A stretch of DNA of 64,000 nt. Source: Phycisphaerales bacterium. GTDB lineage: Bacteria > Planctomycetota > Phycisphaerae > Phycisphaerales > UBA1924. The DNA is taken from assembly GCA_007693785.1 (NCBI GenBank), contig RECY01000023.1, positions 124,001-188,000 of the forward strand, read 5' to 3'. The notes under the pieces were generated by a model. That model was not told the origin of the DNA, ran no database searches, and saw only the letters and a list, made by a program, of their open reading frames with translations. Each line of letters begins with the position of its first letter. Position 1 is the stretch's first letter. Below, one piece after another: positions 9,623-13,001 of the stretch. The translations under genes and the position numbers were made by a program.

Positions 9623-9973
9623 TTAGAACAGCCAGAGCATCGCGGCCAGCACAAGCACGACCATCAAGAGCGCCATCAGCAACCCGGTCACGATGAGCAC
9701 GCTCTCGATTCTTCGGAGCCGCGGCGTCCGCTCACGCCCGCCGACGCGGATCTCCTTCATCTGCGCCCCGCCGAGCCAGATCACCGGGCGCAGCACCCGC
9801 CCGCACTCCGGGCACCTCGGGCGCTCACCTTGGGGCCAGTGTTGCCCGAACAAGTCGTAGTCGCATTTCGGGCAGGGCTCGTGCCGCTCGGCAAAGTACG
9901 CGTTGAGCACGCCGCGGGGCCAGTCCTCTCCCGAACGTCCCGCCGCACGCCCCGCCCGATCCCGCGGCCCCAC
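9623..9973 (-). CDS. Small zinc-ribbon single-pass membrane protein
   Basis: 116 residues, GTG start at 9973, four bases after the prfB stop, so it is probably co-transcribed and coupled. Two Cys pairs (CPKCDYDLFGQ and CPECGRVL) form a rubredoxin-like zinc ribbon, and a C-terminal helix (VLIVTGLLMALLMVVLVLA) anchors it in the membrane. A later GTG at 9910 is an alternative start. The ribbon resembles those of the proteins at 41469-42275 and 53451-56403, a recurring family here. Function unknown. Confidence 0.65.
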   Translation of the reverse strand: MGPRDRAGRAAGRSGEDWPRGVLNAYFAERHEPCPKCDYDLFGQHWPQGERPRCPECGRVLRPVIWLGGAQMKEIRVGGRERTPRLRRIESVLIVTGLLMALLMVVLVLAAMLWLF

Positions 9974-9977
9974 GCCC

Positions 9978-11082
9978 CTACCCCTTCACGTTCCGGCGGC
10001 GCTTCAGCTCCGCATCGACAAACTGATCGATCGCGCCGTTGAGCACCTTGTCCGGGTTGGCTTCGACGCCGGTGCGGTGGTCCTTCACGCGGTTGTCGTA
10101 GAGCACGTAGCTGCGGATCTGCGTGCCCCAGCCGCGGGAGATGTCCCCGCCGGCGACTTCCTTGATCTCGGCCGCACGCCGATCCTCTTCCATCTGCTCC
10201 AGCTTCGCCCGCAGGATCGCCATCGCCTGCGCCCGGTTCTGCGGCTGGTCGCGGTAGGTGCTCGCGACGACCATGATCCCCGTCGGCTTGTGGACCAGGC
10301 GGCAGGCCGAGGCGACCTTGTTCACGTTCTGCCCACCCGGCCCGCTCGACCGCGCGAAGAACGTGATCTCCAGGTCGTTCTCCGGGATGTCCAGGTCCGT
10401 CTCCTCGAACTCCGGCGTCACGTCCACCGTCGCGAAGCTCGTCTGGCGTTTGCCCTGGCTGTTGAACGGGCTCACCCGCGCCAGACGATGCGTGCCGCGT
10501 TCGCAGTTGAGGTAGCCGAACGCGTACGGGCTCTTGACGTGCAGCGTGACGCTGTCGATCCCGACCTCGGTGCCGTGGCTTTTTTCGACTTCCTCGACCT
10601 TCCACCCGTGGCCCTCGATGTAGTAGAGATACATCCGAAAGAGCATCTCGGCCCAGTCGTTGGCCTCCGTCCCGCCGTCGCCGGCCGAGATCGTCAGGTA
10701 GCAGCTCCGGTGGTCGTGCTTGCCGTTGAGCAGAGAGCGGAGCTCGATCTTCTCCATCCGCTCGACGAGCTCGTGGAGCTGCCCGTCGGCCTCGACGAGC
10801 AGCTCCTGGTCGCCGCCCTCTTTCGCAAGCTCGTAGGCCGTGCGCGCGTCGTCGAAATCGTCGGCCCAGACGCGGACCGGCTCGATCTGGGCCTTGATGA
10901 GCTTGAGCTCGCCGACGATCTTCTGGGCCGTCTTGGGATCGTTCCAGAAATCGGTCGCGTTCATCTGCTCTTCGAGCTCGCCGAGCTTGGCGGCCTTTTT
11001 ATCGTAGTTAAAGAGAGTCGCGGATCGTTACAATCCGCGCCTCAAGATCATCGATCACCGGCTGATGGGCGTCGTAGAACAT
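9978..11082 (-). CDS. prfB: Peptide chain release factor 2, expressed by +1 frameshift
   Basis: RF2 releases finished proteins at UGA and UAA. The long open part (10964 to 9978, 328 residues) lacks the usual N-terminus. Upstream, ATG 11082 (with GGAG five bases before it) opens a 24-codon frame beginning MFYDAHQPVIDDLE and ending CTT TAA. Skipping one T gives NYDKK and continues in frame into the long part. The joined protein is 367 residues, close to the 365 of E. coli RF2, and the junction aligns with the known LDYD frameshift site. The SPF codon-recognition motif falls at 204-206 and GGQ at 249-251, matching E. coli numbering within one residue. The stop in the site is TAA, not TGA. A small zinc-ribbon gene follows in the same direction. 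Confidence 0.93.
11007..11039 (-). promoter_or_regulatory. prfB recoding site: CTT TAA C with upstream hairpin
   Basis: On the minus strand CTT (11013-11011) is followed by TAA (11010-11008) and C (11007). In place of the Shine-Dalgarno-like stimulator seen in E. coli there is a 7-bp hairpin: CGCGGAT (11039-11033), loop TGTAACG, ATCCGCG (11025-11019). It ends five bases before the slippery CTT. Recoding is inferred from the alignment across the junction; the role of the hairpin is a guess. Confidence 0.85.
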
Positions 11083-11264
11083 GCGGGCTCCAGCCCTGGA
11101 GTGAGGGGGCACGCCAACCCGGACACCCCGGGTCGGCCGCGAGAACCCACGATCCTACGCGGGCCCTCGGGCAAGGAAAACCACGCCCGCGCGACCGGAA
11201 GCCGGGGCGGTGACGTTGGGAGAGGGACCGCCCCGTGCCGAAGCGGGGCGAGAAGGAGCCGAGT

Positions 11265-13001
11265 ATGCCGAACACCGCCGCCCGCTTGAACCAACCCCGC
11301 CGATCCCCGCGGCACCGCCCCCTGCTCGCGGCCTGCGTGGCCGGCGTCGCCCTCCTAGCGGCGTTCCCGCCGACCCTCCCGGCCTGGGCGGGCGATGGCG
11401 AGGCACAGCCCATGCGATACGCCGACTACATCGCGATGCTCGATCGGGACGGCCTCGAACACACGCTGATCGACCTCGACTTCCGCGGCGGAACGTTCGA
11501 GGAGTACGTCCGAGCCCTGCGCGAAGCCGCGAAGCCCGTCCCCGTCAACGTGCTCAACGTCGAAGAAGGCGAGGGCTACACGCTCGGCCCCGTCCAAGTG
11601 CGACACGTGACGCTCGAACAGGCGTTCGCAATTGTGCCGCGCATCGTGCGGTCCGGGCCGGAGCATCATCAGCTCCGGGTGATACGGGACGTCGACAGAG
11701 ACGCTCGACGCACAGGCGCTTCGGTCTATCGAATCGAATCTCGACAGGTTGCCTTGGCGCCCGGTGACGAGGTCGCCATCGGCCCGCTGCAAACCGAGCT
11801 CATGAACATCACGTCCTTCATCAAGCCCATGTACGGCTACGGGCGCGAATCGGTCCTCACGCCGGAAGAAGTCATGGAAGTGCTCACGCTCGCGATGCAG
11901 GCCGTCGCGTCGGAGCCCAAGCCGTCGCTCCAGCTCCACCGGCGCACGGGCACGCTGCTGCTCAAAGGCACGCCCGCTCAGATCGACGCGGCAAAAGCCG
12001 CCCGCGAAACGCTGAGCCAAGAAGTCAACATGCGTCACAACATCTTCGGGGGCCTCGATATCGGCGCACTCCATGAACGCCGAGAGCTCATTCGCGACCT
12101 CGAAACCCATCGGCAAGAGAGCCTTGCTGAAGCTAAACGCGCCGAAGACGAGATCGACCACTGGCGACACAGCGACCCGAGACCCAATAATGTCCTTATC
12201 GCAGAGCTACGCCGCGACGCCACGATGTACACCCGCCAAGCCGAAGCCCTCGCTGAAGAGATCGAGGACCAACGACGCGAGATCGCCGAGCTCGAAGCCC
12301 GCCTCGCCCTCGCCCGCGGCTCTTCCCCCGTCGACATCGAAGCCCCCGGCGTGCCCGAGCCCACCCTCCGCGCCATCGCCCGCGTCATCCTCGCCGCCGA
12401 CCCGACCGCCGCCGTCGAGGTCATCAGCCTCGCCGGTCGCCGGGGCCTCCGCGTCCACGAGATCCACGAACCCGCCGTGCGCGAGCTCATCGCGAAGATC
12501 ATCGAGAGCCTCGCGGGCGCTCAGAAAGATGTCAGGGATGGCACCACGCGACACGCATCACTGGAAGGCCAGATTCAAGACGCCCGGGCTGAACTGGAGT
12601 TGCAACGCATCGCCCTGAGTCGTGCAGAGCATCAGTTGGAGTGGATCCGTCAGGCACGCCGATCGCACGCAACGAGCGATCACGAGGTGCGATCTGGGGA
12701 GTACGAACTCCAGCAGGCGACCGTTCTGCATCAACGGGCGATCGCCCGATACGAAGCCGCTCAGGCCGAGCTCCGCGCCCGCGGCGGCTCCGCAGGCGAA
12801 CGCGAACTCGTGACGATCGATGGGATCGCCGCTTCAGACCGCCCCACGGTCGAAGCGCTGATCGCCATCATCCAGGACGCCGACAGCGCAGCCGAGATTC
12901 GGCTCACTCCCCAGAGCAGCTCGTTCCTTCAGATCGAACTCCCCAAACGCTACGCGGCTCGTGTTCGAACGCTTATCGATCGCGCCGTGACGCCGCAGTA
13001 A
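11265..13001 (+). CDS. Secreted protein with secretin-N-like segments and coiled coil
   Basis: 578 residues. AAGGAG just before ATG 11265 fixes the start; a GTG at 11235 would add ten residues. A signal peptide ends near residue 42 (LPAWAG). Two segments resemble the short N-domains of secretins: about 55-130 (LIDLDFRGGTFEEYVRAL) and about 190-250 (LHRRTGTLLLKGTPAQIDAA). A long charged coiled coil covers about 260-360, and a second helical stretch about 410-520. There is no secretin beta-domain, so it is not itself a pore. It lies just upstream of the sigma/anti-sigma pair in the same direction. I do not recognise a named family; an envelope role is likely. Confidence 0.65.
   Translation: MPNTAARLNQPRRSPRHRPLLAACVAGVALLAAFPPTLPAWAGDGEAQPMRYADYIAMLDRDGLEHTLIDLDFRGGTFEEYVRALREAAKPVPVNVLNVEEGEGYTLGPVQVRHVTLEQAFAIVPRIVRSGPEHHQLRVIRDVDRDARRTGASVYRIESRQVALAPGDEVAIGPLQTELMNITSFIKPMYGYGRESVLTPEEVMEVLTLAMQAVASEPKPSLQLHRRTGTLLLKGTPAQIDAAKAARETLSQEVNMRHNIFGGLDIGALHERRELIRDLETHRQESLAEAKRAEDEIDHWRHSDPRPNNVLIAELRRDATMYTRQAEALAEEIEDQRREIAELEARLALARGSSPVDIEAPGVPEPTLRAIARVILAADPTAAVEVISLAGRRGLRVHEIHEPAVRELIAKIIESLAGAQKDVRDGTTRHASLEGQIQDARAELELQRIALSRAEHQLEWIRQARRSHATSDHEVRSGEYELQQATVLHQRAIARYEAAQAELRARGGSAGERELVTIDGIAASDRPTVEALIAIIQDADSAAEIRLTPQSSSFLQIELPKRYAARVRTLIDRAVTPQ

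Follow-up and report, generated by a model that had tools for sequence, protein, structure and literature searches.

Background

Frameshift sites in prfB, the gene for release factor 2 (RF2), carry a Shine-Dalgarno-like (SD-like) element that a 2025 survey, in excerpt, calls 'hyper-conserved' (PMC12421855). The same excerpts put TAA at 1.4% of 8,164 prfB sites, spread over several phyla and not broadly fixed in particular clades, and the main text of that survey nowhere contains the string 'Planctomyc'. The motif of the prfB site is already written as YTT_TRA_C in an extract of PMC3711429. For the stimulator, the excerpted sections of PMC6321510 report that the +1 slip at CUUUGA is promoted by a duplex lying immediately upstream of the E site, and that in RF2-free E. 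coli lysate an artificial upstream hairpin was about 60% as effective there as the SD, this hairpin being effective only without RF2 and weaker than the SD. For bypassing in T4 gene 60, an extract of PMC5009743 presents the proposal that zippering of a 5' stem-loop at the exit pulls the mRNA. Here we compare these systems with a prfB locus from the Phycisphaerales and with its counterparts in the class and phylum.

Results

The window, by which we mean the whole 64,000-nucleotide stretch of Phycisphaerales DNA analysed, carries prfB on its minus strand. ORF1 (11008..11082, minus) is 24 codons long, starts at ATG 11082-11080 and ends CTT TAA, with CTT (11013-11011, minus) as its last sense codon and the internal stop TAA (11010-11008) followed by C at 11007 (together 11007..11010, minus). 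The slippery CTT T occupies 11010..11013 (minus), where P-site tRNA-Leu is proposed to re-pair from CUU to UUU. Skipping one T continues the reading as AAC TAC GAT... from 11009 to a stop at 9978 (RF2 body in the +1 frame, 9978..11009, minus, 343 codons plus stop), so that the total of 24 + 343 comes to the 367 residues across the junction that the original prediction had given. The +1-frame product is RF2 by its match to the NCBIfam prfB model TIGR00020 (403 bits vs a cut-off of 370), which begins at residue 2 and spans the residues between the junction and Met 10964; frame, coordinates and match all bear out a +1 frameshift in prfB at CTT TAA C. The genome encodes RF1, as a partial piece scoring better on RF1 models than on prfB, and an RF3 homologue, and the absence of partner factors, considered as a cause of UAA, was therefore rejected. 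A second copy of the prfB cassette was not found in the window's own assembly. Just past the prfB stop a small ORF with a GTG start (9623-9973, minus) carries two CxxC pairs, closes with a hydrophobic C-terminus, and is possibly co-transcribed with prfB.

We tabulated 196 genomes, comprising 75 of the order (the window's own included), 59 from other orders of the class, hand-picked from 164 and representing 17 of 20 families, as well as 62 taken from 140 in the rest of the phylum. Six of these 62 were not placed, genome G019 lacked a full-length RF2 match, and L013 was left out of pair counts because its upstream sequence was too short. The frameshift site was present in 67/75 order genomes, 59/59 of the other class members and 41/56 placed genomes from the rest of the phylum, the last two fractions not being random-sample estimates since those genomes were hand-picked. 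Comparison of the prfB 5' regions of relatives, in line with the check put forward with the original prediction, recovered the site in most of the order; relatives without an in-frame stop, which had been named as evidence against it, do exist and are a minority of 8/75. A sequencing error at 11010 is excluded by the 67 same-order genomes that share the site.

The claim of UAA where UGA is usual was correct. TAA stands at 45 of the order sites and TGA at 22; the counts are TAA 4 and TGA 55 in the other class members and TGA at all 41 sites in the rest of the phylum. Over all 167 sites in the phylum the stop is TAA 49 times, TGA 118 times and TAG never, that is, it is always readable by RF2. 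The base after it is C in 67/67 order sites and nearly always C in the wider sample, CTT T is invariant in a 50-row alignment and in 66 order sites, and ORF1 counted from the nearest ATG is 24 codons long in 61/66 order genomes. At eleven sites (L126, L127, L129-L132, L144-L146, L148 and L149; families f18, f20 and f23) the codon before CTT is TGG, not TCT. Within the order, one family has TGA in 6/6 genomes and the window's family TAA in 34/42, and on an RF2 tree of 108 genomes the stop codon switched at least 14 times, from which UAA and UGA look exchangeable in these genomes. In a crude count over 40 long non-overlapping ORFs of the window (69.5% G+C), TGA ended 25, TAG 11 and TAA 4; among the stops of this DNA UAA seems to be in the minority, yet at the prfB site of the order it predominates. 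UAA is tolerated and common in the order and is not the essential novelty of the site.

The 7-bp hairpin that had been noted five bases before CTT was confirmed at 11019..11039 (minus), with a stem of CGCGGAT (11039-11033) and ATCCGCG (11025-11019) closing the loop TGTAACG (11032-11026); we propose it as the stimulator of the frameshift. In the MFE fold the stem may continue outward past a G-A mismatch by pairing of GAG (11043-11041) and CTC (11017-11015), which reaches the E-site codon (11015..11043, minus). A 36-nt piece with the hairpin folds at -17.5 kcal/mol (z -4.6), and none of 200 shuffles folds as well. Numbered from CTT = 0, the stem has seven pairs, -26..-20 with -12..-6, and at least six of the seven are found at the same offset in 116/125 frameshifting Phycisphaerae genes: 66/66 in the order (all seven pairs in 63, six in 3) and 50/59 in the other class members (all seven in 43, six in 7). 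In the rest of the phylum, 0/41 sites have six or more pairs at this offset, the maximum being five. All three outer pairs are possible in 57/66 order sites and 11/59 of the other class sites. The nine class members without a good stem in this register belong to families f7, f8, f12, f13, f16 and f22; by eye, the two f16 sites L135 and L136 combine a GGGA element with a different six-pair stem, GAGCG(T/C)..(A/G)CGCTC, at a greater distance from CTT, which may represent an intermediate state. Inside the loop (-17..-15), a +1-frame stop codon occurs at 56/66 order sites and 5/59 of the other class sites, where it would halt ribosomes that shift too early. Hairpin energy is alike at order TAA sites (-14.4, n=45) and TGA sites (-14.9, n=21) and does not separate them.

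An Rfam search of 9900-11300 found nothing at the hairpin and one sub-threshold match elsewhere. A scan for stem plus slip site among named species genomes gave at least 119 places; among the 119 listed, 117 adjoin an RF2 match (worst E 0.005), the other two, next to the edge of a record or locus, show an RF2-like start past the junction, and the stops are TGA at 79 and TAA at 40. The titles of the listed matches are Planctomycetota and its subgroups, uncultured bacterium, or apparently mislabelled bins (L258, L286, L289). The titles of L258, L286, L289 and L203 (Actinomycetota, Leptolyngbya, Alphaproteobacteria and Isosphaera, respectively) look wrong, as all four have Phycisphaerae-type prfB sites.

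Since the peptide ARI..IRDS itself brings complementarity, pairing was tested at third codon positions. The pair -25/-7, both third positions, is G-C in 71 sites, C-G in 39, G-T in 7, T-A in 3, A-T in 1 and G-G in 5 (n=126), and both G-C and C-G occur inside each of the families f1, f11 and f18. In a tree-based covariation test on 108 of the 126 class sites, using the RF2 tree, -25/-7 formed standard pairs in 103/108 vs 53.5 +/- 17.4 under independent evolution of the columns, a value reached in 0/20,000 simulations, and in a scan of all columns from -60 to +39 it ranked top (103 vs 49 for the runner-up). The second third-position pair, -22/-10, was borderline on the tree (P about 0.05), and an independent-pairs test at -25/-7 gave 5 changes the same way, 0 opposite and 3 unchanged (p 0.0625, with too few pairs). 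A structure count over 50 rows gave a covariation of 0.261 vs 0.112 when shuffled (0/500) and at most 0.115 when slid; two of its five measures were not above the shuffles, namely pairs with two-sided change (2 vs 1.9) and further pair types (9 vs 7.5). RNAalifold recovered the stem when given the order by itself or a set chosen beforehand for pairing. It gave only 4 pairs in all 125 sites and likewise 4 in the 108-genome set, and neither the 50 diverse hand-picked rows nor the 59 other-class sites yielded a structure. A synonymous null that fixes the peptide and samples codons according to usage within the group predicts both third-position pairs in 11%; the observed figures are 66/66 order sites and 85% of the 59 other-class sites, and the mean MFE in the order is -14.6 vs -6.1 under the null. 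Third positions of the stem region in the order (-28, -25, -22, -10, -7, -4) are 88-100% conserved, and those of the loop (-19, -16, -13) 50-68%.

That no SD-like stimulator is visible at the window's site was likewise upheld, the duplex energy with the 16S tail being 0.0; means are -0.25 kcal/mol in the order, -3.5 in the other class members and -5.6 in the rest of the phylum. GG occurs within -9..-4 at 1/67 order sites vs 38/41 in the rest of the phylum, where the bases at -8..-4 are AGGTG, GGGAC, AGGAC and similar. GGGAC is kept at 39/59 other-class sites, and in most of that group GGG also belongs to the stem as its 3' arm. The order has C or T where other members have the middle G of this GGG, and its 5' arm carries the matching base, so that the stem keeps its pairing and the SD does not. 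Among relatives, 12/12 with the 16S 3' end available share GGATCACCTCCTTTCT there (a 16S match was found in 14/21 genomes), and the window's own assembly gave no 16S match. The order has lost the SD-like element though the anti-Shine-Dalgarno of relatives is intact, and the rest of the phylum (41 sites) shows the reverse. Class members without the hairpin have the stronger SD, -4.29 (n=9) vs -1.58 with it (n=116), at a p of 0.0012 that is not corrected for relatedness. On the RF2 tree, an independent-pairs test (7 pairs, median p 1) gave no support for a link between SD loss, scored by GG, and UAA.

The eight order genomes without the prfB frameshift are L060, L061, L064, L088 and L089, all of one family, and L017, L027 and L079; with five in one family they do not stand for eight independent losses. 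Both third-position stem pairs are in register in 0/8 of them, and two, L061 and L064, still fold strongly by other pairings (-12.5 and -15.7). The hairpin, not UAA, is the more unusual element of the site: it is found in most of the class, it covaries, and it is absent where the frameshift is absent. The suggestion that 'the site works differently' was right.

Discussion

From the frame, the slip site, the hairpin and its covariation, the loss of the SD-like element, and the absence of the hairpin where the stop is absent, we consider it probable that this is a variant of the autoregulatory +1 frameshift of RF2, with a local mRNA hairpin serving in place of the internal SD. Stimulation by the hairpin, the pulling step and the feedback we infer. 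After 24 codons the ribosome would pause with P-site CUU and A-site UAA, and the hairpin, unwound by its passage, would refold behind it at -26 to -6 (CUU = 0 to 2), which places the 3' arm near the position of the SD helix in other bacteria. Refolding may loosen the E site, pull the mRNA outward, or both, perhaps with the outer pairs that reach the E-site codon as its final step, and would favour a slip of the peptidyl-tRNA-Leu one base forward, from CUU to UUU. It is this position of the stem, together with its possible extension to the E-site codon in the order, that leads us to read it as a stimulator. Slow termination, from little RF2 and at UAA also from little RF1, would leave time for the slip and RF2 would be made, and fast termination would abort RF2 synthesis. 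UAA is read by RF1 too, so feedback on total release activity would follow.

Several other explanations deserve consideration. An ordinary prfB frameshift with a weak or cryptic SD, in which the inverted repeat merely reflects the naturally complementary codons of the peptide ARI..IRDS, is unlikely. In its favour, RI..IR yields CG.AT/AT.CG complementarity, the synonymous null already gives 5.5 of the 7 pairs in the order, and GGGAC is retained at those 39 other-class sites. Both third-position pairs are nevertheless far above that null, one of them switching among G-C, C-G, T-A and A-T, and almost no SD pairing is left in the order. Less likely again, in our view, is a role of the hairpin in transcription, either as attenuator or terminator or by inducing slippage of RNA polymerase at the T run. 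A terminator scan does include it, as a 9-pair stem followed by ACTCTCTTTA, and for an IS element PMC5009743 describes polymerase slippage stimulated by a stem-loop in the nascent RNA; but the T-rich tail is not kept, with TGG before CTT at 11/59 other-class sites and TCG or TCC at 12/67 order sites, the slip run is merely three T, and polymerase slippage does not need the conserved RF2-readable stop or the nearly constant fourth C.

Very little probability, slightly below that of the transcriptional explanation, attaches to synthesis of RF2 mainly from the internal ATG at 10964, with ORF1 a relic or leader. Met is found at this position in 120/125 frameshifting genomes, but the same Met is present in all 8 order genomes without the internal stop, and being kept with or without that stop it looks like an ordinary conserved residue, which weakens this alternative. 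The constant length of ORF1 and the inclusion of the residues from junction to Met in the prfB family-model match also speak against an internal start. Least probable of the four is a DNA operator for a prfB regulator. The repeat is a palindrome, and operators can drift symmetrically; against this, its distance to CTT is invariant in 116/125 genes, none of the 8 order genomes that lack the stop has it in register, and the 3' arm plus slip site occurs exactly only once in the genome, with one other place at 2 mismatches.

Within the preferred reading of a hairpin-stimulated frameshift, a more specific proposal is somewhat doubtful. The class may have swapped the mRNA-16S duplex for an intramolecular spring, in which zippering of the stem, its final pairs invading the E-site codon, would drive the slip; in the Phycisphaerales the SD contribution would be gone, and as the stop there is mostly UAA, the loop would sense RF1 plus RF2. 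The natural series of sites with SD only, with both elements and with the hairpin only suggests that the stimulator was replaced while the rest of the cassette stayed. With this series one can test whether the SD simply provides an exit-site duplex and whether RF1 is tied to RF2 control through UAA, and if the hairpin stands in for the SD, AGGGGGUAU in its place should keep frameshifting.

UAA alone at a prfB site was already known; its prevalence within an order, and a hairpin in the place of the SD at prfB, are new as far as our literature searches show. Titles and the beginnings of abstracts yielded neither a natural hairpin-stimulated prfB site nor a Phycisphaerae case, and earlier notice in supplements or in work on Flavobacterium prfB is possible. 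The E. coli-type prfB (AGGGGG UAU CUU UGA C) shares with the sites described here a short ORF1 that soon meets an in-frame stop readable by RF2 and followed by C, the slippery CUU U, and continuation into RF2. Unlike it, this order is without the SD-like element, has a covarying hairpin instead, and carries UAA at 45/67 sites. In T4 gene 60 the ribosome bypasses about 50 nt, and we know of no release-factor feedback there. That is long bypassing, whereas the prfB site here would make a one-base shift; the likeness lies in a 5' stem-loop at the mRNA exit, which the extract of PMC5009743 presents as proposed to pull the mRNA 5'-ward and the ribosome forward. With the artificial H1/H2 hairpins, as described in the excerpts of PMC6321510, our sites share a stable stem close upstream of the slip site, in place of the mRNA-16S duplex, and by this likeness the Phycisphaerae stem would stimulate the +1 slip. 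Those hairpins are synthetic stems of 12 bp placed before UGA and studied in vitro, whereas the Phycisphaerae hairpin is natural, has 7 bp, precedes either UAA or UGA, and is found in most of the class.
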